From the IMG/VR virus record IMGVR_UViG_3300042539_001144, positions 1 through 61,534 of that record: DNA of 61,534 bases, one strand, 5' to 3'. Made by a program: the position numbers and the translations under genes. The notes under the pieces were generated by a model. It was given only the letters and a program-made list of their open reading frames with translations. It was not told the origin of the DNA and searched no databases. Positions 550-61,534 of this stretch are shown here, piece by piece (the stretch's first letter is position 1; each line of letters begins with the position of its first letter). Origin of the DNA: a virus.

Positions 550-813
550 TGGGGCCGTCGCCGCCGGGGGCCGGGGCCGGGGGCATGCCGCCGCCGCCGC
601 GGACGCCGCGGGCCGCGATTCGCAGGGCGGACGCTGTGCAACGAGGGAACCATGGTTGCACACCCCCAAAAACAGCCTTGATTTTGTAGCCGTTCCCTCC
701 CGCCCGCCATCCCTCCGCCCGCGTCGTCCGCATTCATCACGCCGCGTCGTCCGCATTCGTGGGCGATCTTCCCGCCGCGGCGGGCGGACCGCGTTTCCCC
801 CGGCGATATCGGC

Positions 814-832
814 GAGCGGCTGACTGTTCTGG
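814..832 (+). promoter_or_regulatory. Intergenic motif A, copy 1
   Basis: GAGCGGCTGACTGTTCTGG. First of eight copies of a 19-nt motif (consensus GATCGGCTGANTGTTYYGG) found ahead of genes in the rightward region. This copy lies upstream of the gene at 894 and does not follow a recognisable CDS. Confidence 0.6.
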
Positions 833-893
833 AGGGACGACCAACACACCGCGACCGCTCCCCTCCGGTGGTCGTGACGATGGAGGATGAACG

Positions 894-1133
894 ATGGACG
901 CGATCCGCACTCGGCAACTCTCGGTGGCCCTCTCTGGCGACGACGCCACGTTGGTCGTCGCGGCACTCGCCGCGTTCCGGGTGGAGATGGAGACCGCCAT
1001 CTTCAACACGGAGCACACCACGGACCACGACGACGACGACGCGAACGATTCCATGGCGATCAACCGCCGCCGGATCGCACAGTGCCAGCGGTTGTGCGAC
1101 CAGATCGTTTCGGCCCTCGTCTTCGCCCGCTGA
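894..1133 (+). CDS. Small acidic hypothetical protein
   Basis: 79 residues, not recognised. The start is supported by GGAGG about 8 nt upstream of ATG. The N-terminal half is hydrophobic and helical (residues 8-35). It is followed by an acidic His/Asp stretch with five Asp in a row near residue 46, then a basic helix ending in an alternating L/V tail. It is the first gene of the rightward operon, right after motif A copy 1, so it is probably early. No transmembrane segment or known domain is visible. Confidence 0.7.
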   Translation: MDAIRTRQLSVALSGDDATLVVAALAAFRVEMETAIFNTEHTTDHDDDDANDSMAINRRRIAQCQRLCDQIVSALVFAR

Positions 1134-1138
1134 TCGCT

Positions 1139-1157
1139 GATCGGCTGATTGTTTCGG
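1139..1157 (+). promoter_or_regulatory. Intergenic motif A, copy 2
   Basis: GATCGGCTGATTGTTTCGG, 6 nt after the stop of the preceding gene and 14 nt before the hairpin at 1171. Confidence 0.65.
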
Positions 1158-1170
1158 ACACACCACCACG

Positions 1171-1206
1171 ACGGCCCGCACGGGAGCGTTTCCCGCTGCG
1201 GGCCGT
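1171..1206 (+). terminator. GC-rich hairpin with GCGTT loop, copy 1
   Basis: Outer 10-bp perfect stem (1171-1180 with 1197-1206), inner 5-bp stem CGGGA/TCCCG, loop GCGTT, one bulged base at 1196. It is followed by ATTTCAGGAG, which contains the ribosome binding site of the next gene. It could be a weak terminator/attenuator or an mRNA-stabilising or processing element. Confidence 0.7.
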
Positions 1207-1229
1207 TCGCATTTCAGGAGACCCCATCG

Positions 1230-2126
1230 ATGATCGCGTGCAACACCACCACCGGCCCGGTTCCCCTGATCGAACCGGCGGGCGAAGAGTTTCAGGTCGG
1301 CGAGATTCTCACGACGAACGCCAAACTGGAGAAGGCCCCCGACGGCGACGAGATCATGGTCCGCGGCGTCAGCATGGCACCGGCGAAGCGTAGCGGCGTC
1401 GGCAACGTCTGCCTGTTCGCGACCCGGGCCTGCATCATGGCGTGCGTGCTCTGGTTCGGCGGTCGCACCGTCACCGAGTCCGTGCGGCACGCTGCCATCG
1501 CCCGGACGCTGCTGTTCTTCCTGCACCCCGGCGTGTTCTTCGCCCGCCTCGACCGCGAACTGCGGAAGTGGCTGCGGGCGGCTGAGAAGGCTGGCGTGCG
1601 GTTGTACGTCCGCCTCAACACGGCGTCGGACATCACCTACGCCCCGTGGTTCATGCGGCAGTACCCCGGCTGCACGTTCTACGACTACACGAAGGACTAC
1701 GACCGGGCCTTGGCGTACGGTCGCGGGCTGCTGGCCGACAACTACCACGTCTCGTTCAGCGTGAGCGAATCCACGACGTGGGAGCAGGTCGCCACGCTCC
1801 ACGCCCTCGGCGTCAACCTTGTCGTGCCCGTGTCGTCGCACTACGTGCCGCAGGAGCACCAGTACGGCTACCTGCCCGAGCAGATCGTGTTCGTCGGCCC
1901 CTGCGGCGAGCGGATCACCACCGTCTGCCGCGACGGCGACAAGAGCGATCCCCGCGTGCCGGAGTACGACGGCCGCGGCGTGAGCGTGGGCCTGCGTGGC
2001 AAGGGAACCAACGCCGCGAAGGCTGCCGCGAACGAGCACGAGTTCTTCCGCCCCTTCGGCCTCGGCGACCAGTACTTCGCCGAGTTCCGCCAGAAGGGCA
2101 CCTGCATCGTGCGGCTCGCCGCCTGA
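1230..2126 (+). CDS. Cys-motif phage protein (GP88/DUF7227-like)
   Basis: 298 residues from ATG 1230, placed 9 nt after CAGGAG; the upstream part of the open frame contains the hairpin and is rejected. A C-x6-C-x3-C cluster (VCLFATRACIMAC) is followed by GGR, a conserved 'RHAAIART' type helix, 'VRLNTASD' and 'FYDYTK'. I recall this arrangement from a phage/plasmid family of about 300 aa (Gene product 88 / DUF7227 type), whose function is unknown to me. The three close cysteines could bind metal or an Fe-S cluster, but this is not a canonical radical-SAM CxxxCxxC. The gene lies between a hairpin and motif A copy 3 in the early operon. Confidence 0.75.
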   Translation: MIACNTTTGPVPLIEPAGEEFQVGEILTTNAKLEKAPDGDEIMVRGVSMAPAKRSGVGNVCLFATRACIMACVLWFGGRTVTESVRHAAIARTLLFFLHPGVFFARLDRELRKWLRAAEKAGVRLYVRLNTASDITYAPWFMRQYPGCTFYDYTKDYDRALAYGRGLLADNYHVSFSVSESTTWEQVATLHALGVNLVVPVSSHYVPQEHQYGYLPEQIVFVGPCGERITTVCRDGDKSDPRVPEYDGRGVSVGLRGKGTNAAKAAANEHEFFRPFGLGDQYFAEFRQKGTCIVRLAA

Positions 2127-2143
2127 TCGGCTGACTGTTTCGG
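2125..2143 (+). promoter_or_regulatory. Intergenic motif A, copy 3
   Basis: GATCGGCTGACTGTTTCGG, overlapping the last two bases of the upstream stop codon. There is no strong hairpin in this spacer. Confidence 0.65.
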
Positions 2144-2180
2144 AGTACTGATTCCCCAACCCTCAACGGAGACCCTGACC

Positions 2181-2534
2181 ATGTCCTGCGTCGGCTACAA
2201 ACTCTGCCGCTGCCGTCACTCCACGCCGCACCTTCGCGGCATGGTGGCTTCGTGCCGCCACTCCGGTGCCACCGTGTACCGCATCCGCGTCTGGTTCGGC
2301 GGGCTAACGCCCACCACCGAGAAGCGGGCCACGAAGTGGTCGGCATCCCGGCTGCTGTCCGACGTCATGCGTCGATACCCGCAGGCCGTGCGGATCGACA
2401 TCGACTGCGACACATCGCGTCCCTGCACCGAGGACTCACCCAAGGGCGTCATGTGGGTGGCCGCGAAGCCGCAGACGGTCGAGTGGGAGCGTGACCGCGA
2501 CTGCTACGAGATCAACGACGAGTACCGTTCCTGA
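2181..2534 (+). CDS. Hypothetical protein with Cys-rich N-terminus
   Basis: 117 residues, not recognised. ATG follows GGAGACCCTGACC; the same leader precedes the next gene, which supports both starts. The N-terminus carries several Cys/His (C3, C9, C11, H13, H17, C25), possibly a metal site. Residues 30-75 look like an alpha/beta fold, and the C-terminus is acidic. It lies in the early operon between motif A copy 3 and a GTG-start gene. No domain name can be given. Confidence 0.65.
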   Translation: MSCVGYKLCRCRHSTPHLRGMVASCRHSGATVYRIRVWFGGLTPTTEKRATKWSASRLLSDVMRRYPQAVRIDIDCDTSRPCTEDSPKGVMWVAAKPQTVEWERDRDCYEINDEYRS

Positions 2535-2562
2535 CCCCAACCCCAACCCGGAGACCCTGACC

Positions 2563-2847
2563 GTGAACGTCCACCTCAATGCCGATGCCCCCAACGCCAA
2601 CGATGTGCCGACGCTGCACAACCTGACCTACATGACGCTCGCGGAGTACTGCCGGGTCGGCGGCTTCGACGAGGAGGTCATCCGCGAGACGCTCGCCCTC
2701 TGCGAGGTGACTTGGGGATCGCCTGCCACGGAGACATTCCTCCGTGCGTCCGACGTTGCCCTCGCCTGCGAGTTGCACTGCGTCGATTCTGCGGGGGCTG
2801 TGCCTGCTGGCATCTCCCCCGACCTGTTCGTGCGGCTCGACGCCTGA
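2563..2847 (+). CDS. Small hypothetical protein, GTG start
   Basis: 94 residues if read from GTG 2563, chosen because the 14-nt leader CGGAGACCCTGACC is identical to that of the gene at 2181. The sequence is acidic and helical (for example EEVIRETLALCEV), ending in a short 'GISPDLFVRLDA' tail. No known domain is visible. It overlaps nothing and is followed by the strong hairpin at 2871. Probably an early phage-specific protein. Confidence 0.65.
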   Translation: MNVHLNADAPNANDVPTLHNLTYMTLAEYCRVGGFDEEVIRETLALCEVTWGSPATETFLRASDVALACELHCVDSAGAVPAGISPDLFVRLDA

Positions 2848-2870
2848 CCACACACCCACAACCCAGTACT

Positions 2871-2906
2871 GCGGCCCCGCCGGGAGCGTTTCCCGAGCGG
2901 GGCCGC
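2871..2906 (+). terminator. GC-rich hairpin with GCGTT loop, copy 2
   Basis: Outer 10-bp perfect stem (2871-2880 with 2897-2906), inner CGGGA/TCCCG, loop GCGTT, single bulge at 2896: the same architecture as copy 1 with a different outer stem sequence, so the pairing is compensatory. It is followed by GTCGTTTCAGGAGGAG, which holds the next ribosome binding site. Confidence 0.75.
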
Positions 2907-2930
2907 GGTCGTTTCAGGAGGAGAGTTCCC

Positions 2931-3311
2931 ATGATCCGCGTTCGATTCCACCTCGGTGCCGGTGCCCACTTCATGCACTGGCAGATCACGCACCACGACG
3001 GCAGCGTGACCTACCACGACCCCGACGCCTGCACCCTCACCATCTGGCAGGGCAGGCTCCGCAACCAGCCCGCCGCTGCGGCCCGCATCCACGCCGGTGC
3101 CAACAAGACCGTGTGTGCGTGGATCGAAGCCGAGCGGGTGGACGTTGACCCGGGCGTGTCGGGCGTGATGGGCGGTGCCCACGCTTCCTACAACCCGCGG
3201 GTCGCACCTCACTGGGTGATCAACGGACAGAACTCGGACGGTCGCAGGTTCCCGGTGCTCACCACCGCAGGGAGCCGCGTGTTCGTGCCCGAGATGCAGG
3301 CGATCGGCTGA
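2931..3311 (+). CDS. Hypothetical protein, His-rich
   Basis: 126 residues from ATG 2931, preceded by CAGGAGGAG; longer open sequence upstream covers the hairpin and is not used. It is rich in His, Trp and aromatic residues in a beta pattern (FHLGAGAHFMHWQITHHDG, YHDPDACTLTIWQG), which resembles small phage beta-sandwich proteins, but I cannot name a family. The stop codon lies inside motif A copy 4. Confidence 0.65.
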   Translation: MIRVRFHLGAGAHFMHWQITHHDGSVTYHDPDACTLTIWQGRLRNQPAAAARIHAGANKTVCAWIEAERVDVDPGVSGVMGGAHASYNPRVAPHWVINGQNSDGRRFPVLTTAGSRVFVPEMQAIG

Positions 3312-3320
3312 TAGTTCTGG
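3302..3320 (+). promoter_or_regulatory. Intergenic motif A, copy 4
   Basis: GATCGGCTGATAGTTCTGG. The first ten bases encode the last residues (I-G) and the TGA stop of the upstream gene. Confidence 0.65.
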
Positions 3321-3351
3321 ATCGACAACCTCAACACGAAAGGACGATGCG

Positions 3352-3756
3352 ATGACCATGCGATTTGAAGGCAAGTTCCAGTGCAACCCGCAGCCCGGCG
3401 ACTTCCTGACCCTGAACGTCGGCAGCGTCGAGGTGCGGGCCACCATCAAGCACGACGGCCACTCCCGGCCATCGGACTACGAGTGCTACACGCCAGCCGA
3501 CTGCGAGTCGTGGAGGCGGGGCGAGTGGTACTTCTGCGGCGTCGTGATCTCCGTGCGTGCCAACGGCCGCTCGGTGGACGAGCACCACGAATCCCTGTGG
3601 GGCATCGACGTCAACAACTCGGGCGACTACGTCACCGAGATCGCCAACGACATGGCGAAGCGTGTCGATCTGACCGAAATCGCACTGCGTCTCGGCGAGT
3701 GCTCGCGATCCCTGCGTAACGCACGGGACTCGATGCTGCTCGGCTCGCCCGTCTGA
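3352..3756 (+). CDS. Hypothetical early protein
   Basis: 134 residues, not recognised; ATG 3352 follows AAAGGACGATGCG. The N-terminal half is a beta-rich segment (FEGKFQCNPQPGDFLTLNVG) with a W-R-R-G-E-W core near residue 55. The C-terminal half is helical (residues 93-125) and Arg-rich. No catalytic motif is apparent. It sits between motif A copy 4 and the hairpin at 3772. Confidence 0.65.
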   Translation: MTMRFEGKFQCNPQPGDFLTLNVGSVEVRATIKHDGHSRPSDYECYTPADCESWRRGEWYFCGVVISVRANGRSVDEHHESLWGIDVNNSGDYVTEIANDMAKRVDLTEIALRLGECSRSLRNARDSMLLGSPV

Positions 3757-3771
3757 CCCCGGCCCGTGGTC

Positions 3772-3797
3772 GGCAGCCCTCCGCGTGGCGGGCTGCC
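3772..3797 (+). terminator. GC-rich hairpin, short member of the family
   Basis: GGCAGCCC (3772-3779) pairs with GGGCTGCC (3790-3797); an inner CC/GG closes a GCGT loop. It lies between the genes at 3352 and 3842. Confidence 0.6.
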
Positions 3798-3841
3798 ATC
3801 CGTGGATCGTGGATCGCTTGAACCTACCGGAGTACTGAATC

Positions 3842-4297
3842 ATGGCTGACGTGAAGTGGTCGGTGAGCAATGACCGCGAAGACGACGAGGCGTATATCGA
3901 GAACGAGCGTGGCGTGGAGTGCGTCCAGATTCAACGCACAAACGGCCCAGCCCTGACCCGGGGCGAGTTCGACGTGATCGTCGACCTCATCGCTGCCGCA
4001 CCGGAGATGCTCGCCGCACTGCGTGACCTGCGTGCCACGCTGGAGGCGTTGACGGGGTGGCGTGAACTCGACGGCACGCAGATCGATCAACTCATCGCCA
4101 GCGATGGGCTGCACTACCTCGACAAGGTCATCGCCAAGGCCGAGCCGGTTCGCGAGGTTCGCCGGAAGGTGGAAGTCACGGTCGAGGTCACACTCGACGT
4201 GCAGGCGGGCACCGATGACGCCACCCTCGCCATGATCGCGGTCGATGCGGTGCGTGACGGCGGCGGCGCTGTCACTGCCCACAAGGTGATCGGCTGA
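3842..4297 (+). CDS. Hypothetical protein with phage 'LIAAAPEML' helix
   Basis: 151 residues; ATG preceded by GGAG. Residues 40-70 carry the helix 'IVDLIAAAPEMLAALRDL', a pattern I associate with many small phage proteins of unknown role. The C-terminal half is beta-rich (KVEVTVEVTLDVQAG) with a small alpha/beta end. The stop codon is embedded in motif A copy 5. Function unknown. Confidence 0.65.
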   Translation: MADVKWSVSNDREDDEAYIENERGVECVQIQRTNGPALTRGEFDVIVDLIAAAPEMLAALRDLRATLEALTGWRELDGTQIDQLIASDGLHYLDKVIAKAEPVREVRRKVEVTVEVTLDVQAGTDDATLAMIAVDAVRDGGGAVTAHKVIG

Positions 4298-4306
4298 TAG
4301 TTCCAG
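4288..4306 (+). promoter_or_regulatory. Intergenic motif A, copy 5
   Basis: GATCGGCTGATAGTTCCAG, overlapping the stop codon of the preceding gene. The hairpin at 4315 follows within 9 nt. Confidence 0.6.
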
Positions 4307-4314
4307 ACACACAG

Positions 4315-4356
4315 ACCACGACCCCGGCAGGTGCGTTGCCTGACCGGGGTCGTGGT
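4315..4356 (+). terminator. GC-rich hairpin with GCGTT loop, copy 3
   Basis: 13-bp perfect outer stem (4315-4327 with 4344-4356), inner CAGGT/GCCTG including a T-G pair, loop GCGTT at 4333-4337, one bulge at 4343. It is followed by GTTTCAGGAGG, the next ribosome binding site. Confidence 0.75.
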
Positions 4357-4370
4357 GTTTCAGGAGGTGC

Positions 4371-4718
4371 ATGATGAATCGGTATCAGTTCACGAACGCG
4401 GCGGGCTTTCGCCTCGTCGAGCGGTGCCTCAAGTTCAACACCGCGATGACGCTCGGCGAGGTGCCGTGCCTTGAGGTGGAGGGGTGGCTCGCGGTGGAGG
4501 GGTATCGCGGCGAGTTCGCCATGCACGAGTTCGTGCAGTGGCTCAAGGCCAACGCCCCGTCGTCCACGTCCGCAGCCAAGGTGCTCGGGCTGGTGGCGAT
4601 GGGCATGGCATCGGAGATGGTTCGCGACCGGGAGTTCATCGACAAGGTGGAAGCGTTCCACTCTGCGATGACCCGGCGGTTCGGTGTGGACAAGAGCGAC
4701 GTGAAAGGGGGCGAGTGA
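4371..4718 (+). CDS. Hypothetical helical protein
   Basis: 115 residues; ATG (or the ATG 3 nt later) follows CAGGAGGTGC, a strong ribosome binding site. The sequence is mostly helical: a conserved-looking 'EFVQWLKANAPSST' centre, a small hydrophobic patch (VLGLVAMGMA) too short and polar-flanked to be a clear membrane span, and a charged C-terminus. It ends in a TGATG overlap with the next gene, so translation is probably coupled. Confidence 0.65.
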   Translation: MMNRYQFTNAAGFRLVERCLKFNTAMTLGEVPCLEVEGWLAVEGYRGEFAMHEFVQWLKANAPSSTSAAKVLGLVAMGMASEMVRDREFIDKVEAFHSAMTRRFGVDKSDVKGGE

Positions 4719-5047
4719 TGCGACGAGGCACCAACGTCATGCGGCTCCGCGATGAGCGGGCCAAGGACATGAAGGCGGAGCGGTGGTCGAGGGTCAACGT
4801 GCGGGGCATCAACCCGTACACCATCGACCGGGTGGTCGGCACCTTCACCACGGAGTTCTCTCGCACTGGGCGGAGCCTGCCCATCGGCGAGTACTCCACC
4901 GTGGAGGTGCGGGCGTACGACGTGCGGTGCCCGGACGGCACCACGTTCCGGTTCGCCCGACTGAAGGACGCGAAGACGTTCATCGTGTACGAGAGCAACG
5001 GCCTCCTCATCCCGGCAGCCCTCGCTGCTGGCCTGAAGGTGGGCTGA
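4718..5047 (+). CDS. Hypothetical basic protein
   Basis: 109 residues from ATG 4718 in the ATGA overlap with the upstream stop. The Arg/Lys-rich N-terminus (residues 1-30) is followed by a beta-rich core (VVGTFTTEFSRTGRSLP, STVEVRAYDVRCPDGTTFRF). No family recognised. It is coupled to the genes on both sides by 4-nt overlaps and is part of a tight five-gene run from 4371 to 5962. Confidence 0.65.
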   Translation: MRRGTNVMRLRDERAKDMKAERWSRVNVRGINPYTIDRVVGTFTTEFSRTGRSLPIGEYSTVEVRAYDVRCPDGTTFRFARLKDAKTFIVYESNGLLIPAALAAGLKVG

Positions 5048-5355
5048 TGCGAACCGTCACGGAGGACGAGTACCGGGTGAGCAAGCGAGTCGTGCTCACG
5101 CCCGGCGTGAAGTTCAGGGCAGGCGGCGGGCCGTACTACCGCCTGTCCGATGGCACGAAGGTGAGCCTCGCTGCGGCGGGCCCCTTCACTTTCGTCCGCT
5201 GCCACAGGCGGGGGAAGTACGTGCTGATCGAAGCACTCGACAGGAATGGGTGCTTCGCTCCGCTCCATGTGGCAGGCCGACGGGCAAGGATCACGCCCGC
5301 ACTCGTGCCTCGTCCCTACGTGATCCGTTCCACGGTGAGGAGGAAGGAATCGTGA
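5047..5355 (+). CDS. Hypothetical basic beta-rich protein
   Basis: 102 residues from ATG 5047 (ATGA overlap). The translation is beta-rich with many Arg/Lys, 'GGGPYYRLSDGTKVSL' and 'FTFVRCHRRGKYVLIEALD', resembling a small SH3/OB-like barrel, but no confident match. It ends in GTGA, where the next gene starts at GTG. Confidence 0.6.
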   Translation: MRTVTEDEYRVSKRVVLTPGVKFRAGGGPYYRLSDGTKVSLAAAGPFTFVRCHRRGKYVLIEALDRNGCFAPLHVAGRRARITPALVPRPYVIRSTVRRKES

Positions 5356-5762
5356 AGACCGCGAAGCGAGTGGATCTCCGCCCCATCCGGGCTGCGTTCC
5401 GTGAGTTGATGAAGTACGGCATCCTCTGTGAGGGTGGCCGGTGGACGTGCTGCCAGTCGTGCGGACAGCACGACATGCAGTTGCGGTGGGACAAGGCGGC
5501 CGAGGGCGAGAAGCCTCTCGGCTACGCCTTCTGGCACGCACAGGACGACGACCTGCTGCGTGAGACCGGCGAACTGTGGCTGGCGTTCAATGCCTTCGAT
5601 CAGGTCGACTCCCGGTTCGTGGGCAACCTCGTCGTCGGCGTGCTGAAGAAGCACGGCGTGCGGGCACGGTGGAAGGGCGACGTCCGCACCCGGATCGAGT
5701 GCATCCTCGGGTGGCGCGAAGTGGGCGTGCGATTCGTCACGAAGAAGGGAGGTGCGAAGTGA
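5352..5762 (+). CDS. DUF6891-like protein
   Basis: 136 residues starting at GTG 5352 in a GTGA overlap, with AGGAGGAAGG just upstream. 'CCQSCG' near residue 35 and 'GYAFWHAQDDD' near residue 60 match the two hallmark patterns I recall for DUF6891 (a CCxxCG pair and a G-Y-x-F-x-H-x-Q-D block). The cysteines suggest a structural zinc site. Function unknown. It ends in KGGAK, whose codons double as the ribosome binding site of the next gene. Confidence 0.7.
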   Translation: MKTAKRVDLRPIRAAFRELMKYGILCEGGRWTCCQSCGQHDMQLRWDKAAEGEKPLGYAFWHAQDDDLLRETGELWLAFNAFDQVDSRFVGNLVVGVLKKHGVRARWKGDVRTRIECILGWREVGVRFVTKKGGAK

Positions 5763-5962
5763 GTGGCGATGACGTGCGAGAGACGGTGGCTGGTTTCATG
5801 CGGGCGGCTGGACTGCACCCGTCGCTGATCTACGCCTTCCGCAAGACGGGACTGTTGGTGGGGGAGGATACGCCCCACTCGGATGCAGAGCGGAAGGAGT
5901 TCGTCGATGCCGCCGATGAGTGGTGGAGCCAGAACGAAGTGGTGAAAGGAGGTGCGAAGTGA
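5759..5962 (+). CDS. Small phage protein (YAFRKTG family)
   Basis: 67 residues from GTG 5759. The last 16 nt around its own start (GGAGGTGCGAAGTGAG) recur exactly around its stop, so it has the same coupling signal at both ends. 'YAFRKTGLLV' followed by an acidic D/E-rich helix with a WW pair is a pattern seen in small phage proteins of unknown function. It ends in KGGAK like the preceding gene. Confidence 0.65.
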   Translation: MSGDDVRETVAGFMRAAGLHPSLIYAFRKTGLLVGEDTPHSDAERKEFVDAADEWWSQNEVVKGGAK

Positions 5963-6033
5963 GAGACGAGCAATGGATGCTCGTGATCGAGGTGATCCGC
6001 GTGATCATCGAGATCATCCGGCACGGAGGCTGA
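5959..6033 (+). CDS. 24-residue hydrophobic mini-protein
   Basis: GTG 5959 follows AAAGGAGGTGCGAA and overlaps the upstream stop (GTGA), the third use of this coupling module. The product is a short amphipathic helix of alternating V/I and E/R (LVIEVIRVIIEIIR), ending at TGA 6031-6033, which is immediately followed by motif A. Too short for family assignment. It could be a membrane-associated peptide or a translated leader. An in-frame ATG six codons in would shorten it. Confidence 0.45.
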   Translation: MRDEQWMLVIEVIRVIIEIIRHGG

Positions 6034-6050
6034 TCGGCTGAGTGTTTTGA
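6032..6050 (+). promoter_or_regulatory. Intergenic motif A, copy 6
   Basis: GATCGGCTGAGTGTTTTGA, overlapping the stop of the mini-gene; the hairpin at 6055 follows. Confidence 0.6.
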
Positions 6051-6054
6051 CGAG

Positions 6055-6098
6055 GCACGGCAGGCCACGGGGGAGCGTTTCCCTCGTGGCCGCCGTGC
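6055..6098 (+). terminator. GC-rich hairpin with GCGTT loop, copy 4
   Basis: GCACGGC and GGCCACG (separated by one bulged A at 6062) pair with CGTGGCC and GCCGTGC, giving 14 outer pairs. The inner GGGA/TCCC closes the GCGTT loop at 6075-6079. TTTACGGGGGTGG follows. Confidence 0.7.
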
Positions 6099-6170
6099 TT
6101 TACGGGGGTGGACGGACTCATTGACGGCACCCGGATGATGAACGAGTACTCAATCACAAAGGACTGACAG

Positions 6171-7052
6171 ATGATCGCAACCAATCTCCCCTCGGCTGCC
6201 GAGGGTGCTCTCGTTTGGGTGAACCACGCCGGGCGTGTCCGGGTCAACGTGGTTCGCTCCGTGTTCTCGAACCTCGGGCTGGCGAAGTGCCTGCCCCGCA
6301 AGGAAAAGCGGGCCATCGCCCTGCGGCTGGCGATCAAGGCGTGGCTGATCGCACGGTACGGGAGGAAGGACGCCCGCACCATGCGTCTGTACCCGCTCGA
6401 CCGCCGGGTGCTCGGGTTCGAGGTGCGTCGGAAGGTGGATGGCACCGAGCAGAACGATCACCCGTACGTCTGCACCGTGAAGGCCGACGACCACGGGGCG
6501 TACGTCACGTACGCCGGTGCGGCTGGCCCGCAGCAGGAGACCGACGACGTGACCCGCATCTACCTCGACCGCGTCGAGTGGTACTGCGGCACGACGGTCG
6601 GCTCGCTGATCAAGCGTGCCATCACCGAGAAGTGGATGGGCACCTCGCTCAAGAGCAACGGCGGCCTGTACTTCCTGCCCGGCCAGTACCTGCCCAACTA
6701 CCGGGCGCTGGCCGACGGCATGGAGCGGAGCCCGTCCAACCCGGACTCCGAGTTGGTGATGACCGTCGCCACGTTCGACGTCCGCAACAACCCGAGCGTG
6801 GCCCGTGACGCGATGCTCTCGCTGCGGCAGGAGATCAAGGCGGCGACCGACGAGATCAACGCAGACCTCGTCGGTGCCCACGAGATGACCGAGTCGGGCA
6901 TCGCCAACCGCAAGGCCCGGCTGGCACGGCTGCTCGCACAGGCGGCGGAGTACTCCGCCCTGTTCGAGGCCAGCATCGACGACCTGAAGGGCATGGTCGA
7001 GGGCACGCAGAGCGCCCTTGCCATGGCCGAGTTGGCCGAGGCTTCCGCCTGA
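6171..7052 (+). CDS. DUF6744-like protein preceding the MoxR/VWA pair
   Basis: 293 residues; ATG 6171 lies about 70 nt after the hairpin. No catalytic motif is visible. The middle (residues 120-200) contains 'VEWYCGTTVGSLIKRAI' and 'GGLYFLPGQYLPNYRAL', which resembles proteins I know as DUF6744 from phage and plasmid loci. The C-terminal 90 residues are a long Ala-rich helix, probably coiled coil. It shares the same intergenic cassettes as the AAA ATPase and metallopeptidase/VWA genes downstream and may act with them (inference). Confidence 0.6.
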   Translation: MIATNLPSAAEGALVWVNHAGRVRVNVVRSVFSNLGLAKCLPRKEKRAIALRLAIKAWLIARYGRKDARTMRLYPLDRRVLGFEVRRKVDGTEQNDHPYVCTVKADDHGAYVTYAGAAGPQQETDDVTRIYLDRVEWYCGTTVGSLIKRAITEKWMGTSLKSNGGLYFLPGQYLPNYRALADGMERSPSNPDSELVMTVATFDVRNNPSVARDAMLSLRQEIKAATDEINADLVGAHEMTESGIANRKARLARLLAQAAEYSALFEASIDDLKGMVEGTQSALAMAELAEASA

Positions 7053-7069
7053 TCGGCTGTGTGTTCTGA
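7051..7069 (+). promoter_or_regulatory. Intergenic motif A, copy 7
   Basis: GATCGGCTGTGTGTTCTGA, beginning inside the upstream stop codon; the hairpin at 7081 follows. Confidence 0.55.
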
Positions 7070-7080
7070 GCGATCTCGAT

Positions 7081-7111
7081 GCGGGCGGCGGGCACTGTGC
7101 TCGCCGCCCGC
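7081..7111 (+). terminator. GC-rich hairpin, variant loop
   Basis: GCGGGCGGCG (7081-7090) pairs with CGCCGCCCGC (7102-7111); an inner GGCA/TGCT continues the stem to a CTG loop. CCTGTTTCACCC follows. Confidence 0.7.
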
Positions 7112-7143
7112 CCTGTTTCACCCCCGAGTTGGAGGACTCTTTG

Positions 7144-8262
7144 ATGTTCAGTCACCCCATGTGGTTCGCGTTCGTTGTCATGCAGACCATGATCCCCACC
7201 CTGCTGATCGGCCCGCCGGGCTGCGGCAAGACGGCCTCGATCATGGCTCTCTCCCACGCCATCAAGCGGCGGTTCGTTCCGCTGATCGGCAGCCAGTGCT
7301 CGCCCGAGGACGTGTCCGGCCTGCCCGTGCCGGACATGGTGAAGTTCCTGTGCCGCATGATGCCCATGTCGTGGGTCGAGGCACTGCTCACCCCGGGCGG
7401 GCTGCTCGCCCTCGACGAGTTCGGCAACACGCCCCCGTCGGTGCATGCCTCGCTGCTCACCGTGATTCAGGACAAGAGGGTCGGCGACCTGACCCTCGAT
7501 CTGGACACGATGATCGTGGCGATGATGAACCCGCCGGAGCAGTCGCCCAACGGCACGCCGCTGTCGCTGCCCACTGCCAATCGGTTCTTCATCACCGAGT
7601 GGAAGAACGACACGGCAGCGTGGATCGACGGGCTCGCAGCCGGGTGCGAGTGGGCTGCCCCGCAGATGCCCATCCTGCCTGACGACTGGAAGACTCGCGT
7701 CCCCCGGTGGGGTGCGCTGCTCGCCACCTATCACCGCCGGTTCCCCGGCCGTGACAACGTGCTGCCGAAGGACGACACGATCCTCCGCTACCCGACCGAG
7801 CGGTCGTGGAGGAACGCCGTTCACTGCCTCGCTGCTGGCGAGGCTGCGGGTGCGGACATGTGGACCGACCAGTCCAACGTCCGGCTCATGGCAGCCGGGT
7901 GCGTCGGTGATCAGGCGGCCGACGAGTTCTGCGAGTGGAAGAGCACGTTCGACATGGCCGATCCGCTCGACATCCTCGACGGCAAGGTGACGTTCAAGCA
8001 CCGCGACGAGCGGCCGGACATCACGATGACCGTGCTCGCTGCTCTCGCCTCGGCGGTGAGCACCGAGTCCACGTTCACGCCGGACCGCTGGGATGCGGCG
8101 GCCATGATCTTCGGTGAGGTTGGCAAGACCAGCCACCCGGAGATGGCGCTCCGCTACACGCGGCTGCTGCTCGATGCGACGGCGAAGTTCAAGCACGCCC
8201 CGTCGGCGAAGGTGCTCAAGCCCCTCGTCGAAATGAACGCGGCGATGAAGGTGGGCGGCTGA
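7144..8262 (+). CDS. MoxR-type AAA+ ATPase
   Basis: 372 residues from ATG 7144 after TTGGAGGACTCTTTG. Walker A GPPGCGKT is at residues 23-30 and Walker B LLALDE at 87-92, with 'NPPEQSPNG' and 'LPTANRF' further on as expected for the sensor and arginine-finger region of the AAA_5/MoxR family. MoxR ATPases act as chaperones that remodel partners carrying VWA domains. Here the next gene encodes exactly such a protein (metallopeptidase plus VWA), so the two probably form one system. The target is unknown. The stop codon lies in motif A copy 8. Confidence 0.88.
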   Translation: MFSHPMWFAFVVMQTMIPTLLIGPPGCGKTASIMALSHAIKRRFVPLIGSQCSPEDVSGLPVPDMVKFLCRMMPMSWVEALLTPGGLLALDEFGNTPPSVHASLLTVIQDKRVGDLTLDLDTMIVAMMNPPEQSPNGTPLSLPTANRFFITEWKNDTAAWIDGLAAGCEWAAPQMPILPDDWKTRVPRWGALLATYHRRFPGRDNVLPKDDTILRYPTERSWRNAVHCLAAGEAAGADMWTDQSNVRLMAAGCVGDQAADEFCEWKSTFDMADPLDILDGKVTFKHRDERPDITMTVLAALASAVSTESTFTPDRWDAAAMIFGEVGKTSHPEMALRYTRLLLDATAKFKHAPSAKVLKPLVEMNAAMKVGG

Positions 8263-8271
8263 TTGTTTCGG
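8253..8271 (+). promoter_or_regulatory. Intergenic motif A, copy 8
   Basis: GGGCGGCTGATTGTTTCGG, overlapping the stop of the ATPase gene. Confidence 0.6.
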
Positions 8272-8273
8272 GA

Positions 8274-8304
8274 GGGGCGGCTCGTCACGGTGGCGGGCCG
8301 CCCC
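8274..8304 (+). terminator. GC-rich hairpin, variant loop
   Basis: GGGGCGGC (8274-8281) pairs with GCCGCCCC (8297-8304); CGTCA/TGGCG extends the stem to a CGG loop. It lies just ahead of the VWA gene. Confidence 0.65.
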
Positions 8305-8333
8305 ATCCCGACCAACACACAAGGGACACAGCG

Positions 8334-9914
8334 ATGGACGCGATGCGAGCGAAGGTTGCCCAGTTCAGGACGGCGGTGAAGAAGATTCTCCCGTACTTCA
8401 CGGGCGAGGTCTACGGCATGATCGCCATCGAGGAGAAGCGCGTCGGCACGATGGCGGTCGACGAGCAGGGGCGGATGTACTACGCCCCCGAGTTCGTGCG
8501 TCGGTGCTCGATCGAGCAGGGCCGGTTCACTGTCTGCCACGAGACGCTGCACGTTGCGCTCGGCCATGCTCGGCTGGCCCGCAAGATTCTCGGCGACAAC
8601 CCGACGCAGTCCATGCTCAAGGCGTGGAACTACGCCGCCGACTGCGTGGTCAACCAGATTCTCGGTGCGTACCTGCACGAGGCGCCGGGCGAGGACGTGC
8701 TCGGCCCGGGTGCCACGATCGTGACGCACCAGACGCTCGGCCTGCCGCCGCGGCTGACCATCACGCAGTACTACGACCTGCTCATGCAGCAGCAGCAGGA
8801 GCAGCCGCAGAACCCGGGCCAGCGTGGCACGGGCAAGGACGATGACACGGAGGACGACGAAGATGAAGACATGGAAGGGGCCGGTGAAGGTGAGCCTGAT
8901 GATCGGGACGGCGAACCTGACGAGCAGGGAGGTGGTGATGGTGGGGAACAAGACGTTCCTCACGATCCTTCTGAAGGCGATGGCGAGGGTGGCGAAGAGG
9001 ACGAAGGCGACGACGACGGTGAAGGTGAGGGTGGCGCTCGTCCCGGCGAAGGAGGTGCCGAACGGGACGGTGGTGCTGATCGCCCGTCGCAAGATGGCGT
9101 CGAGGATTCGTCGGACGCTGAAGGCGAAGGGTGCGACGGCGACCCGGCCGACGACGGTGGGGACGGGTCGTGGTCTCCGACTGGCGGCAGCGGCGCTGAC
9201 GGAGTGCCTCGCGGATACGAGGCCGAGCGAGACCCCTCGTGGGTCGACCGCGAGTACTCGCTCGCCAAGCAACTCGAAGCCGCCATCGAGGAAGCCGAGC
9301 GATCGTCGCCGGGCTCCGTCCCGGGCGAGTTGAAGGCGGCGGTCGGCCTCCGGCTACGGCCACAGCCTGACCCGTACGACGCTCTGCGTGCGTCCGTGGC
9401 TCGGGCTGTGGCCTCGCCGGTCGGTGCCCCCGACTTCACGCTGAAGCGGTTCAGCCGCAGGCAGCAGCCGGGCATGCCGCGCCTGCGTGGCGTGAACAAA
9501 CTCACGCCCAACGTCGTGGTCCTGCTCGACACGAGCGGGTCGATGGGCTTCAGATGCCCGGGCTACGAGCGAGCGGAGCGTGCCCTCGACGTGATCGCGA
9601 AGGGCATACGGAAGTTGAAGTCCGTGCGTGTCATCTGCTGGGACACGCAGAAGCACAGTGCCCGCATGGTGCAGTCCATGCAGGGCTTCGAGGTGCAGGG
9701 TGGTGGCGGCACCGACATGGGGCAGGCCATCGAGACGATCGACAAGGAACTCCGGCCCGACGCCATCCTCATGGTGACGGACTTGGAGACCGGCTGGTGT
9801 GAGCGGAAGCCTAGGGCCCGTGTCGTGATCGCTGCGACCGAGGCGCCGAGCGAGTACTACCCCGTGCCGGGATGGGCGACTGTCGTGGACCTGACACGCG
9901 GAGGTGGGCAATGA
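8334..9914 (+). CDS. DUF2201-type putative metallopeptidase with C-terminal VWA domain
   Basis: 526 residues. The N-terminal domain (about 1-160) has the zinc-peptidase signature HETLH at 69-73 within 'VCHETLHVALGHA'. A very acidic, Gly-rich linker of about 140 residues (D/E runs, roughly 170-310) follows. The C-terminal VWA-like domain begins near 385, with the MIDAS motif DTSGS at 399-403. The order metallopeptidase, acidic linker, VWA matches the DUF2201 family that partners MoxR ATPases. Low-complexity codons in the linker create long open frames in other phases, which I regard as shadows. Its start is preceded by AGGGACACAGCG. The stop overlaps the start of the next gene (ATGA). Role in infection unknown. 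Confidence 0.87.
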   Translation: MDAMRAKVAQFRTAVKKILPYFTGEVYGMIAIEEKRVGTMAVDEQGRMYYAPEFVRRCSIEQGRFTVCHETLHVALGHARLARKILGDNPTQSMLKAWNYAADCVVNQILGAYLHEAPGEDVLGPGATIVTHQTLGLPPRLTITQYYDLLMQQQQEQPQNPGQRGTGKDDDTEDDEDEDMEGAGEGEPDDRDGEPDEQGGGDGGEQDVPHDPSEGDGEGGEEDEGDDDGEGEGGARPGEGGAERDGGADRPSQDGVEDSSDAEGEGCDGDPADDGGDGSWSPTGGSGADGVPRGYEAERDPSWVDREYSLAKQLEAAIEEAERSSPGSVPGELKAAVGLRLRPQPDPYDALRASVARAVASPVGAPDFTLKRFSRRQQPGMPRLRGVNKLTPNVVVLLDTSGSMGFRCPGYERAERALDVIAKGIRKLKSVRVICWDTQKHSARMVQSMQGFEVQGGGGTDMGQAIETIDKELRPDAILMVTDLETGWCERKPRARVVIAATEAPSEYYPVPGWATVVDLTRGGGQ

Positions 9915-10648
9915 CGTTCGACGAACAGGTGGCTGCGCTGCGTGGGAAGGTGGAGCCGAAGCAGTTCAGGGGCGGGAAAGGCGCTGCCACGCCAGAGCAG
10001 TGGGCCGCCCACCTTGACGACGCAGTGCTTTACAAGCGGGCGAGGGCAGAAAGCAGCCCCGAGTGGAGACATCGCTACCGAGAGGCCGACCGCACCTACA
10101 CGCGAGAGTGGAAAAGGAAGAACGCCGGGAGAGTGCGGGAGTACAAGGCAGCGCGGCGCAAGGCCGGGGCCGACGCAGTTCGAGAGCGCGAATACCGCGA
10201 GAAGAACCGGGGGAGGATTCGCGAACGGTACCGGTCGTGGTGTGCTCGTGCTCGCTCAACGGACGTCCACTACCGACTCGTCAAGTCCGTCCGCGGAAGG
10301 CTCCGCGTGGCCGTGAACGGTGGCTACCGATCTGGCTCCGCCGTCCGTGACCTCGGCTGCTCGATCGAGGAACTCAAGTCCCACATCGAACGGCAGTGGG
10401 TCGGCTGTATGTCTTGGGAGAACTGGGGCAGCGGGCCGGGGACTTGGCAGATCGACCACGTCTACCCGCTGGCACAGACAGACCTGACCGACCGGGCCCA
10501 ACTGCTGGCGGCCTGCAACTGGCGGAACCTTCAGCCGATGTGGTTTGAGGACAACGTACGCAAGGGCGATACCGTCACGCCCGAAGCGCAGCAACTGTTT
10601 GACGGGCTGGTCTCGGAGTTCACGGAGGTGCGTGATGAAGTTGCGTAA
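9911..10648 (+). CDS. HNH endonuclease
   Basis: 245 residues from ATG 9911, in an ATGA overlap with the VWA gene and preceded by GGAGGTGGGCA. The N-terminal 110 residues are very basic and helical, likely DNA binding. The C-terminal HNH core reads 'QIDHVYPL' then 'NWRNLQPMW' with 'DNVRKGD', the usual I-D-H / N-L-Q-P / D-N-x-x-K-G order of phage HNH nucleases. It may be a free-standing homing-type enzyme inserted in the operon. The 3' end overlaps the next gene. Confidence 0.85.
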   Translation: MTFDEQVAALRGKVEPKQFRGGKGAATPEQWAAHLDDAVLYKRARAESSPEWRHRYREADRTYTREWKRKNAGRVREYKAARRKAGADAVREREYREKNRGRIRERYRSWCARARSTDVHYRLVKSVRGRLRVAVNGGYRSGSAVRDLGCSIEELKSHIERQWVGCMSWENWGSGPGTWQIDHVYPLAQTDLTDRAQLLAACNWRNLQPMWFEDNVRKGDTVTPEAQQLFDGLVSEFTEVRDEVA

Positions 10649-11309
10649 GTCGCAGAAGGAGTCGTGGCTGATGCGGGTGCTGATGGATCGGAAGGCCCGG
10701 CCCCTGCCGTACGTCGGAGGCATAGACCTCATGCCCATGGGCCGCACGCTGCTGCGGAAGTGGGCCGACAGGTACTGCGGCGGGTACGGGAAACTCACGC
10801 CGGAACATGCGGTCCGACTGCACGATCGGCTTGTAGTTATGGCGAAGGACATCGACGGTGCGGTCGTCGAGTGCGGCATGGTTCGTGGCCCGGCGTGGCA
10901 GCCCGGATACCTGTGGGCCTACGGTGCCATCGCCGTGCTCGACGAGTACGGCCGGGCGACCAGCGGGTCGGTGCTGATCCCCGGTGCCTCGGCCGTGCCG
11001 TACTACGTGCGCCGCAGCCTGACCAGTCCGAGGCAGTACCACCGCAGCCTCCGCCTGTGGGATGACCTGTGCCCAGTGATCGAGGACATCGCGTCCCCGG
11101 AGACCGTCACCCTCAACCGGAATCAGGTCGCCCGCAAGGACGACGTGAGACCCGGCGACTGCTATCTCTACGACCTGACCCGGGCGCACTCGCCGCGGGT
11201 GGTCGTGGAGAACTTGTACTTCGGCCGGGCCTGTCGGTTCGGCCTGCTCGACGAGATGATTGATACGGCACGGTGCCGTATCGTGTTCGGTTCCCTCGCT
11301 AGTGCGTGA
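10635..11309 (+). CDS. Hypothetical early protein
   Basis: 224 residues from ATG 10635, preceded by GGAGGTGCGTG and overlapping the HNH gene by 14 nt. Not recognised. The basic N-terminus contains 'KSQKESWLMRVLMDRK'; a mixed alpha/beta body with many Arg and Tyr residues follows ('WQPGYLWAYGAIAVLDEYG'). No catalytic motif is visible. It is the last larger gene before two very small ones and the recombinase. Confidence 0.6.
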   Translation: MKLRKSQKESWLMRVLMDRKARPLPYVGGIDLMPMGRTLLRKWADRYCGGYGKLTPEHAVRLHDRLVVMAKDIDGAVVECGMVRGPAWQPGYLWAYGAIAVLDEYGRATSGSVLIPGASAVPYYVRRSLTSPRQYHRSLRLWDDLCPVIEDIASPETVTLNRNQVARKDDVRPGDCYLYDLTRAHSPRVVVENLYFGRACRFGLLDEMIDTARCRIVFGSLASA

Positions 11310-11317
11310 GGTGTGCG

Positions 11318-11413
11318 ATGAACTATCCGTCGGTCCTTGAGATCGTGCAGACGTGGTGCATCATTGTCTGCGTGTACTTCTTCCTCGTAGCCCATAACAG
11401 AATGAGGGTGTGA
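11318..11413 (+). CDS. 31-residue single-pass membrane peptide
   Basis: ATG 11318 after GAGGTGTGCG; TGA at 11411-11413, 1 nt before the next start. The peptide has one hydrophobic span (residues 13-25, WCIIVCVYFFLVA) flanked by a short polar N-terminus and a positively charged C-terminus (HNRMRV), so an N-out/C-in topology is likely. It could be a small inhibitor, holin-like or exclusion peptide; nothing in the sequence decides. CCCATAAC at 11391-11398 near its 3' end resembles motif B. Confidence 0.5.
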   Translation: MNYPSVLEIVQTWCIIVCVYFFLVAHNRMRV

Positions 11414-11414
11414 C

Positions 11415-11774
11415 ATGACTGGACGATACTGGATGGTCGTGCGGCCCGGCAGATGGTCGCCGGACGAAAAGCGGTTCCCCACCGGGGCCGATGCTCTTGA
11501 GTACGCGCTTCGCTTGGTTCGCCGGGCCAAGCGCAGCGCATTCGTGAAGCACAGGGAGCACTGCCCCGTGCGAGTCTTCGTGGTGACCATGTACGGCGAC
11601 ACCCCCGACGGCATCGCCTACGAGACGGCGATGTACGAGACCGGCGGGCGAGGGGATTACCCAAACTCCGGGCGGTCCATCGACACGGAGTTGCAGGCCG
11701 AGGTCGATGCATCGTGGCAGCACTACTTCATCCACAACCCTGACCAGAAAAGTCTTGAAGAGGAGGACGACTGA
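11415..11774 (+). CDS. Hypothetical protein upstream of the serine recombinase
   Basis: 119 residues; ATG 11415 follows GAGGGTGTGAC. 'YWMVVRPGRWSPDEKRF' at the N-terminus and an Arg-rich helix (EYALRLVRRAKRSAF) suggest nucleic-acid contact, but no family is recognised. The C-terminus is acidic (EEEDD), and the gene ends in TGATGG, where the recombinase starts, so the two are translationally coupled. Confidence 0.6.
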   Translation: MTGRYWMVVRPGRWSPDEKRFPTGADALEYALRLVRRAKRSAFVKHREHCPVRVFVVTMYGDTPDGIAYETAMYETGGRGDYPNSGRSIDTELQAEVDASWQHYFIHNPDQKSLEEEDD

Positions 11775-12556
11775 TGGCTACGTGCTACGGATACGGTCGA
11801 GCCAGCACCGACAAGCAGGAACTCACCGAGCAGGTGCAGTCCAAGTCGGTCAAGGAAAAGTACTCCGCCCTGCTCAAGCCCAAGGGCGTCAAGTGGGGCG
11901 GGTGGTACTACGACGCGGCGGTCTCGGGCAGCAAGCCGTTCACCGAGCGGCCCGCTGGCCTGCGCATGTGGATGAACCTCCAGCCCGGGGACTACGTGGT
12001 CACGCACCACAGCGACCGTGCGTTCCGTGACACGGCCGACGGCCTACGGACCTCGGCCCTGTTCCGGGCGAGGGGCGTCGTGCTTGTGATGCCTGACATC
12101 CCGCACGATCTGGAGACTGCGGACGGCGAGATGATGGCGACCATTCAGTTCGCATTGAATCTCCGCGAGCGCCGCAAGGTGGCGGAGCGTACCGCCGCTG
12201 CCATGCGCGTGCTGTCCGAGCGCGGCGTCCGGTTCGGCGGGGCCCGGCAGAGCACGCCAATCGGCTGGCGGTGGGGCGGCGCGGGCTACGTCGAGGACGC
12301 GGAGGAGCGGGCCCGCGTCGAGCAGATGGCCCAGTGGTACGAGTCCGGCCTGTCGCTGGAACGCATCGAGATGCGTGTGTCCTACCCGCCGTACCAGTGG
12401 AAGAGGCGCAGCACTAGCAGTCGCTTCGGAAACTGGTCTCGTCGGTACGTGGCGTTCGCTCTGGAGGCTCGTCGTCTTGGCTATCCGAAGGTCTTCCTGA
12501 ATGGTCGGAGACGCAAGACCGCAGCGCGTCCAGCGCATCAAGCATCCGCGACTTGA
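11774..12556 (+). CDS. Serine recombinase / resolvase-invertase family
   Basis: 260 residues. The catalytic N-terminus reads YGYGRASTDKQ with R9 and nucleophile S11; the second block SDRAFRDTADG has D81, R82 and R85, as in resolvases. After the long helix (to about 150), residues 155-230 form a compact region (GGARQSTPIGW..., E-R-A-R-V) resembling a short Recombinase domain. At 260 aa it is far smaller than large serine integrases, so it is probably a resolvase/invertase rather than the integrase; a tyrosine integrase is encoded at 20407. The last 143 nt are also read in the opposite direction by the sigma-like gene. Confidence 0.85.
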   Translation: MATCYGYGRASTDKQELTEQVQSKSVKEKYSALLKPKGVKWGGWYYDAAVSGSKPFTERPAGLRMWMNLQPGDYVVTHHSDRAFRDTADGLRTSALFRARGVVLVMPDIPHDLETADGEMMATIQFALNLRERRKVAERTAAAMRVLSERGVRFGGARQSTPIGWRWGGAGYVEDAEERARVEQMAQWYESGLSLERIEMRVSYPPYQWKRRSTSSRFGNWSRRYVAFALEARRLGYPKVFLNGRRRKTAARPAHQASAT

Positions 12557-13016
12557 TCGTCCGCCAGTCCCTGCCTCGGTCTCTTCCGATGGCGTTGAGG
12601 GACTTGCCCTCTAAGACGTGGGCCTCGATGAGTTCCCTGTCCTCCGGCGGCAGCAGGCGCAAGCATGCCATGGCCTGCTGCCGCTGGTCGGTGGCGAACG
12701 ATATGCCGAGGGCCTTGCCGAGATCGATGCGCTCGTTGGCCGCTTCCTTCGATCGCTGCACACGCTTCACTTCCTTGAGAAGGGCGTGGCGGATGGCCGA
12801 CCCGTAGTACGTGGTCGGCTTCGACTTCGACCGATCGTAGGTGAACGACGCCTCGACGACAGCCAACTCCGCTGCACCATTCAGGTCGCAGTGTCGAATC
12901 AGCCGGGCGTAGCACGGGTGCCGAGCGACGAACATTCGCACGGCAGCAGGCACGAGCCCGAGCGCTTCTTCCGCCATCGCCTTCTGCGATGACGACAGCC
13001 GACGCTTCTTCTTCAT
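12414..13016 (-). CDS. Sigma-70-like RNA polymerase sigma factor
   Basis: 200 residues from ATG 13016, preceded by GAGG. Region 2-like part: residues 30-90 ('FVARHP...', 'AAELAVVEASFTYDRSKSKPTTYYGSAIRHALL'), the pattern of core-binding/-10 recognition in small phage and ECF-type sigmas. Region 4-like part: residues 118-160 ('LPPEDRELIEAHVLEGKSLNAIG...DWRTIKSRMLDALDAL'), a clear HTH. The C-terminal 35 residues are disordered and overlap the recombinase gene tail to tail. It is a plausible specificity factor for the recurring CGCCATAAC elements (inference). Confidence 0.75.
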   Translation of the reverse strand: MKKKRRLSSSQKAMAEEALGLVPAAVRMFVARHPCYARLIRHCDLNGAAELAVVEASFTYDRSKSKPTTYYGSAIRHALLKEVKRVQRSKEAANERIDLGKALGISFATDQRQQAMACLRLLPPEDRELIEAHVLEGKSLNAIGRDRGRDWRTIKSRMLDALDALRSCVSDHSGRPSDSQDDEPPERTPRTDETSFRSDC

Positions 13017-58222: not shown

Positions 58223-58875
58223 TTGGTCCTCTCCAGCAGGGAGCGGAGCGTGGCGGCAACCCGCAAGCCATCGACTCCTCCAGCCTGATGGCAGTTGAGG
58301 ATTGCCATGTCCACCGCCATCCGCTCCTCGTCGGTGAGCGTGAACGGCGTCAGGGAGCAGTACTGCGTCGTGCGTCCGACGACGTATGGGCACGCCCCCG
58401 CCCCGCCTACATCAGCGACCTCGGTGGCACCGAGGCTTTCGGCAGGGGCAGGGGCGGCCGCCTGATCTGTCGCAGTTTCGCCGTTCGTGCGACACGTCGC
58501 CGCGATCTGTCGCTGGCGAAGACATTCCCGCCAGAGGGCGTCAGCGGCAGCGGCGAGGGTCTTCCTCGCATCGTCGGAGCCGGAGGTGGCGGCGCGAACG
58601 CAGACGATCAGGTCTCTCTTCTTGCCTATCCCGTTCGCATTGACCGACACGGAGAGGTCAAACAAGAGCGACTGCGCGAGGTCCAGCGCATCGAGGACGG
58701 ACTGCTGCACAGGATCGCGCCCTCCCGGCGGGCAGGCCCTCGGCTCGTCTCGGATGGTGGCTTCGAGGCGCATCCTCTCGATCTCGTCCGCCGCCTCGTC
58801 CATGAGGTCTCCGCACGGGACTGCGTTGACCGAGACCGTCCACTTGCGCAGGCGATAAACGATGTCGTCAGTCAT
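58219..58875 (-). CDS. Hypothetical protein
   Basis: 218 residues from ATG 58875. Begins 'DDIVYRLRKWTVSVNAVPCGDLMDEAADEIERMR', a common start of small phage proteins. It has an internal helical domain ('VLDALDLAQSLLFDLSVSVNANGIGKKRDLIVCVRAATSG') and an Ala/Thr linker, then 'VDMAILNCHQAGGVDGLRVAATLRSLL'. No known enzyme signature. Confidence 0.6.
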   Translation of the reverse strand: MTDDIVYRLRKWTVSVNAVPCGDLMDEAADEIERMRLEATIRDEPRACPPGGRDPVQQSVLDALDLAQSLLFDLSVSVNANGIGKKRDLIVCVRAATSGSDDARKTLAAAADALWRECLRQRQIAATCRTNGETATDQAAAPAPAESLGATEVADVGGAGACPYVVGRTTQYCSLTPFTLTDEERMAVDMAILNCHQAGGVDGLRVAATLRSLLERTK

Positions 58876-61338: not shown

Positions 61339-61534
61339 TTATAGAGCCTCGACGATGGGCAGGGTCTTCTGGCCCGGGAGAAAGCGCTGGTCTGCTACGG
61401 GCGGGGGAGGGGCTGGCGCCGGGTCCTTGGCGGTCGGTCTGGAGCGGTATCGATTGGTCACATTCCGGACTTGGCCGCCGTGCCACGCCCGGCCGGTTCG
61501 CTGCCTAGACCCCCATCGGTTCAGGGCCGCGGCA
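61339..61534 (-). CDS. C-terminal part of the junction-spanning HNH/Recombinase gene
   Basis: Bases 61339-61407 encode the last 22 residues (PPPVADQRFLPGQKTLPIVEAL, given in parts as PPPVAD...IVEAL) and the TAA stop of the HNH/Recombinase protein whose ATG is at 444. Bases 61408-61534 repeat the start of the window, where the same frame is already read. Together they restore an uninterrupted 170-residue gene across the assembly junction. Confidence 0.75.
   Translation of the reverse strand, partial: AAALNRWGSRQRTGRAWHGGQVRNVTNRYRSRPTAKDPAPAPPPPVADQRFLPGQKTLPIVEAL
61408..61534. repeat. Terminal direct repeat, right copy
   Basis: Identical to bases 1-127. Removing one copy gives a 61,407-bp circle. 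Confidence 0.97.

Follow-up and report, generated by a model that had tools for sequence, protein, structure and literature searches.

The window, by which we mean the whole stretch of DNA analysed here, is an uncultured virus record of 61,534 bp. It carries an exact direct terminal repeat of 127 bp, at 1-127 and 61408-61534, and is therefore probably a complete or circularly closed phage genome. The plus-strand genes from 894 to 12556 constitute an early or accessory block ('early' being a label taken from position and gene content), with GP88-family, L5 gp82-like, DUF6744-like, MoxR-like ATPase, VWA/metallopeptidase-like and serine recombinase products. Helicase, ERF and SSB genes lie on the minus strand, together with the structural genes, portal and terminase among them. 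The phage may be temperate, as a tyrosine-integrase-like gene at 20500 suggests. No close relative of the window was present among the annotated phages searched, and no relative of its MoxR protein among bacterial genomes. Protein and DNA queries did, however, find four related genomes:

G001: 57.5 kb, MoxR 99% identical to that of the window
G002: 62.6 kb, MoxR 64% identical
G003: 61.4 kb, MoxR 50% identical
G004: 62.8 kb, MoxR 42% identical

The MoxR-like ATPase adjoins a VWA/DUF2201 metallopeptidase-like protein (window 7144-9914), and the pair is adjacent in G001 and, by alignment, in G003 too. G004, the most distant relative, shows a run of canonical T-tracted terminators between small genes (L047 2822, 2993, 3327 and 3800).

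Short gaps of the early block in the window hold four hairpins with a common loop, three of them trailed by a similar short sequence:

1169-1209, plus strand: H1, GCGTT hairpin with a 3' bulged C, upstream of the GP88-family gene 1230-2126
1212-1220, plus strand: TTTCAGGAG behind H1
2866-2910, plus strand: H2, GCGTT hairpin with a 3' bulged A, without motif A (defined below), upstream of the L5 gp82-like gene 2931-3311
2912-2921, plus strand: TTTCAGGAGG behind H2
4315-4356, plus strand: H3, GCGTT hairpin with closing pair T-G and a 3' bulged A
4358-4367, plus strand: TTTCAGGAGG behind H3
6055-6098, plus strand: H4, GCGTT hairpin that lacks the 3' bulge and lies 72 nt ahead of the gene 6171-7052

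Sequence reading combined with folding places the loop GCGTT on a 5-bp inner stem at 1186, 2886, 4333 and 6075. A preliminary description of this DNA had reported the loop in hairpins at 1171, 2871, 4315 and 6055, with outer stems that differ in sequence between the copies and yet pair; direct reading and folding bear out both statements. Its finer details need adjustment. The inner stem, given as 4-5 bp, is kept, but its length is 5 bp and its last pair in the 4315 copy is T-G. The single bulge, described as kept, is found on the 3' side in three of the four copies, whereas the 6055 copy has a G-U pair instead. Likewise, the TTTCAGGAG(G) said to follow the hairpin is there in three copies (1212, 2912 and 4358), but in the 6055 copy TTTACGG comes next and the start codon is 72 nt away. 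A short TTT lies behind most hairpin copies.

Further hairpins occupy comparable places in the early block:

850-876, plus strand: a weaker hairpin, located in the first early gene's leader; in G001 its letters are changed and re-paired
3772-3797, plus strand: variant hairpin with loop GCGT, without motif A, upstream of the gene 3842-4297; kept in G001 and G002
7081-7111, plus strand: slot hairpin with a different loop, upstream of the MoxR-like ATPase gene
8268-8311, plus strand: slot hairpin upstream of the VWA/metallopeptidase-like gene

The last three had been taken for variants of the family (as 3772, 7081 and 8274). They are real hairpins that share slot and arrangement with H1-H4, and the MoxR slot carries a hairpin in all five phages, but the covariance model described below finds none of the three, and they are not members of it. 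With a purpose-written scan, seven stem-loops reached the threshold in the window, as compared with a mean of 1.0 and a maximum of 4 in 30 first-order-Markov resamplings. Six of these seven strongest stem-loops, namely H1-H4 and those at 7081-7111 and 8268-8311, fall within 934 nt of early intergenic gaps. In addition, the leaders each fold 3.2-5.1 SD better than dinucleotide shuffles.

A covariance model was built on 16 copies, four each from the window, G001, G002 and G003. It finds exactly four copies in each of these genomes, all in the early block and scoring 46-71 bits; the next-best matches are the same places on the opposite strand, there is no further copy elsewhere in the four genomes, and G004 yielded none. 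Because the sixteen copies trained the model, their scores are not independent; the information lies in the lack of further copies and in the pair statistics. The pair count was redone on a MAFFT alignment. Double, pair-preserving changes occur in 14 of 18 pairs, with 50 double-change cells and arms that differ between copies. Cells are paired in 89.9% of cases, against 41-52% with the partners slid by 1-3 columns. None of 500 shuffles reached any of the five measures, a count that is not a probability given that the copies are interrelated. G-U cells outnumber A-C cells by 16 to 4 in 15 distinct rows (cells that are not independent), a balance that speaks for coding-strand RNA rather than for DNA or the antisense strand; model scores are also far higher for the coding strand. 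The covariation is of the RNA type, and it is the sense strand that is preferred. Individual changes can be followed between close relatives: in G001 the ortholog of H1 shows an A-T pair replaced by C-G, a compensatory change, and that of H4 a paired G/C insertion. While the stems change, the loop is GCGTT in 14 of the 16 copies (in H4 of G002 it is TCGGT); most copies have the 5-bp upper stem with a 3' bulge, the bulge being missing in several. In 13 of the 16 copies, 14-21 nt separate the end of the hairpin from the start codon downstream.

These data strongly support the view that the GCGTT hairpins are a selected RNA structure. The preliminary description had proposed as much, to be given up should relatives hold no members; the model search found them in G001, G002 and G003, and together with the pair statistics they sustain the proposal. 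A chance origin was rejected, the resamplings, the leader-fold shuffles and the pair shuffles all being against it. A DNA-level site, such as a cruciform or an integron attC-like element, was discarded as well, since the excess of G-U over A-C cells and the far higher coding-strand scores indicate sense RNA.

The family is a so far undescribed control element. No Rfam covariance model matched at any of the hairpins up to E = 1, which removes the known RNA families as candidates; the H3 header found no match in annotated phages, and the exact H3 core none in bacterial genomes. What emerges is an RNA family outside Rfam that is defined by covariation across four uncultured phages. Other candidate members and models were set aside. 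Those relatives of the GP88 gene that were searched with the model (among L007-L022) contained no family member. Phage contigs with the exact GGGAGCGTTTCCC core (L026-L041 except L035) have stems that are mostly short or differently built, and two of them, L029 and L032, are terminator-like. N4-type hairpin promoters for a virion RNA polymerase do not fit either, the stems being far longer here and the scanned proteins including no RNA polymerase family.

The second half of the hairpin module, absent from the preliminary description, is motif A, CGGCT-NN-TNGTTYYGGA, a repeat that occurs in one orientation in the early block. Its sites in the window are:

814-833, plus strand: motif A of the first early gene, with no co-directional gene close upstream
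1139-1158, plus strand: motif A upstream of H1
2125-2144, plus strand: motif A ahead of gene 2181, whose C/A-rich leader is unstructured
3302-3321, plus strand: motif A ahead of gene 3352, whose C/A-rich leader is unstructured
4288-4307, plus strand: motif A upstream of H3
6032-6051, plus strand: motif A upstream of H4
7051-7070, plus strand: motif A upstream of the 7081 hairpin
8253-8272, plus strand: motif A overlapping the 8268 hairpin

Each phage has about 7-10 sites on the early coding strand, and the opposite strand holds no motif A of the phage-specific form. By the folded boundaries, motif A lies 4-20 nt upstream of the hairpin in 13 of 16 copies, at a spacing that varies. The two NN positions are GA at seven of the eight sites in the window, TG in G001 (one site excepted), AG at most sites in G002 and GA in G003. 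Such a coordinated shift between phages suggests that the site is recognised by a reader acting in trans. A search for sigma-70-like promoters (-35/-10 hexamers at 16-18 nt spacing) gave one match in 700-12600 and none at motif A. Motif A is most likely a promoter or promoter/operator for early transcription, recognised with the help of a phage-specific factor. If a phage factor does read it, the four genomes would be natural specificity variants for finding that factor. The RNA family is coupled to a DNA motif of which the specificity has changed concertedly among close relatives. A motif-like 15-mer of the G001 type, GATCGGCTTGTAGTT, at window 10824-10838 falls within a coding gene, and does so in G001 too; being intragenic and conserved together with its gene, it was left out of the count. 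G004 has a comparable repeat, TTG-N6-CGTTCGGCAGG with a GATTGTG-like box after it, in five copies, each followed by an inverted repeat in the leader, which is the same arrangement as that of motif A and hairpin.

The hairpins recur in the same position, and their conservation is independent of the gene behind them. H3 is 81-100% identical over aligned columns in the window, G001, G002 and G003, yet BLASTP finds no match among the four genes that it precedes; an H2-like hairpin in G003 precedes another gene. Since one hairpin heads unrelated genes in different phages, it is a general header rather than a gene-specific switch, and an autogenous operator was rejected on the same grounds. The earlier suggestion that the hairpins control each early gene is accordingly only partly right, as some early genes have unstructured leaders. 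Upstream of gene 6171, nucleotide alignments between the window and G003 comprise mainly headers, or motif A with an unstructured leader; the block of motif A, hairpin and ribosome-binding site, about 80-100 nt, aligns at 79-82% for H1 and H3. Between the window and G001, gene gain or loss falls at these header gaps, and the headers may double as recombination joints. This bears on how phages can exchange early genes without giving up their expression, a constant header being followed by a different gene. Where the otherwise ~95% identical phages differ by the gain or loss of small early genes (window 2127-2850 and 4371-4718, and the G001 counterparts), the joints lie at headers.

The nearest described system is that of the SAS and ESAS of cluster K mycobacteriophages, a fixed 13-mer and a 17-bp inverted repeat with a consensus, respectively (Pope 2011, PMC3203893; PMC12699233). 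Like the window hairpins, these are repeated in one orientation directly upstream of the start codons of non-structural genes; in both systems there are inverted repeats, the consensus varies by phage group and function is unproven. Unlike them, the arms here change freely with pairing kept, and only the loop is fixed. The window family has neither of the two sequence features tested: the SAS consensus GGGATAGGAGCCC is not enriched near start codons in the window (one match with two mismatches, at 41115, against 1.9 expected), and instead of 17-bp arms of conserved sequence there are arms that differ, as the double-change cells attest. We place the family among the start-associated leader elements that phages carry in repeated form, with the difference that the RNA structure covaries here. 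Motif A in turn resembles the stoperators of cluster A mycobacteriophages (L5; PMC9283540), which are short, asymmetric and transcription-oriented, lie in short intergenic gaps and differ in specificity between relatives. Motif A is itself an asymmetric, intergenic site of one orientation. Stoperators, however, come without a hairpin and have a different sequence, motif A is confined to the early block, and no repressor for it was identified.

We tentatively favour, as the most probable of the readings considered, a portable early-gene header made up of a motif A promoter/operator, a 5'-leader hairpin that would stabilise or insulate the start of the mRNA, and the ribosome-binding site. Thus, motif A, a short asymmetric DNA element, would act as early promoter or promoter/operator; some 4-20 nt further on would come a strong RNA stem-loop, then GTTTC.GGAGG and the start codon. 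The stem-loop would form close to where each early mRNA begins (in the case of H2, at 2866, at a cistron boundary), leave the ribosome-binding site free and single-stranded, and shield or insulate the start of the message against decay and upstream sequence. That transcription would start at motif A, and that the hairpin would be stabilising or insulating, we infer. The reading is supported by the presence of motif A ahead of the first early gene, where no co-directional transcript lies nearby that could be terminated, by the distance of most hairpins from the start codon (13 of 16 ending 14-21 nt before it), by a membership of exactly four in every one of the four phages, with no further copy in their genomes, by the near-invariance of H3 ahead of four unrelated genes, and by the five G004 repeats, with a TTG box upstream, that precede leader inverted repeats. 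Against it count the lack of a sigma-70-like promoter at motif A, the H2 and 3772 hairpins that have no motif A, the variable spacing between motif A and hairpin, a near-invariant GCGTT loop that exceeds the needs of a pure stability element, and the canonical terminator in the H4 slot of G003. Moreover, the early genes at which motif A is followed by an unstructured leader imply that the hairpin is not required for expression.

That terminator leads to a possible, if less probable, alternative: the hairpins would act as attenuators in the leaders, or as terminators between cistrons, whose U-tract has degenerated; they would halt part of the RNA polymerases ahead of each early gene and perhaps be relieved later in infection. 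We rank it close behind the header because of the T-tracted terminators in the G004 gaps and the G003 H4 slot. The latter reads GGGATGCACC..GGTGCGTCCC followed by TTTTTT, the former are canonical hairpin-plus-T-tract terminators in the same kind of gap, the MoxR slot of G002 has a CCCCCTCTTTGTTT tail, and most copies have the short TTT behind. The early hairpins are GC-rich, as canonical intrinsic terminators are, but no early hairpin of the window has five T within eight nucleotides behind it, a tail that some relatives' slots do possess. Most members in the window group have three T only, with the ribosome-binding site immediately after, and the terminator scan detects none of the window's family hairpins. 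Where a terminator is wanted, these phages can make a T-rich one. The U-poor terminators in the early region of actinophage phiC31, reportedly described by Ingham in 1995, offer a precedent; these too are GC-rich hairpins that lack a long T-run and lie between the early genes of a phage with high GC content. They are not known to share a loop or to form a covariation family, and attenuation leaves the conserved loop of the window hairpins unexplained. A full terminator between promoter and gene would also require an antitermination factor, and none was identified. Such a factor is at the centre of a proposal made by analogy with AlpA and lambda Q, which load at DNA elements (PMC9371919). In such distributed antitermination, a phage-specific factor would load on RNA polymerase at motif A and carry it past the hairpin downstream, each early unit comprising a loading site and an attenuator, and motif A and factor would co-diverge between related phages. 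We regard this as unlikely.

A further reading is an RNA operator, in which a phage or host protein would bind the GCGUU loop, the 5-bp upper stem and the bulge, so that the early genes are co-regulated together at the level of translation. Besides the loop, kept in 14 of 16 copies despite stem changes, the upper stem and 3' bulge of most copies and the location directly upstream of the ribosome-binding site agree with this, and the gene 43 operator of T4 is a precedent, in which gp43 binds a hairpin that lies upstream of the ribosome-binding site and start of its gene and has a loop conserved among relatives (PMC3014915). That operator, however, serves one autoregulated gene, whereas the window has four copies ahead of unrelated genes, so the control would not be autogenous; several copies have no bulge, the H4 loop of G002 is TCGGT, and no candidate binding protein was found. 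We consider this reading rather doubtful, though somewhat less so than distributed antitermination. Improbable, and the least likely of all, are RNase III-like processing sites, at which a polycistronic early RNA would be cut to leave hairpin-protected ends. The long, nearly perfect intercistronic duplexes, including H2 and 3772 with no motif A, would suit such sites, but each unit apparently has a motif A of its own, and the internal loop or cut-site features that processing predicts contrast with a conservation restricted to the terminal loop.

Far from the early block, at window 58392-58457 on the minus strand, there is an Rfam match to the DUF3800-VIII RNA (RF03075) of 58.9 bits, above the gathering score. 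Parts of the region around 58312-58400 align at 81-96% with G001 and G002.
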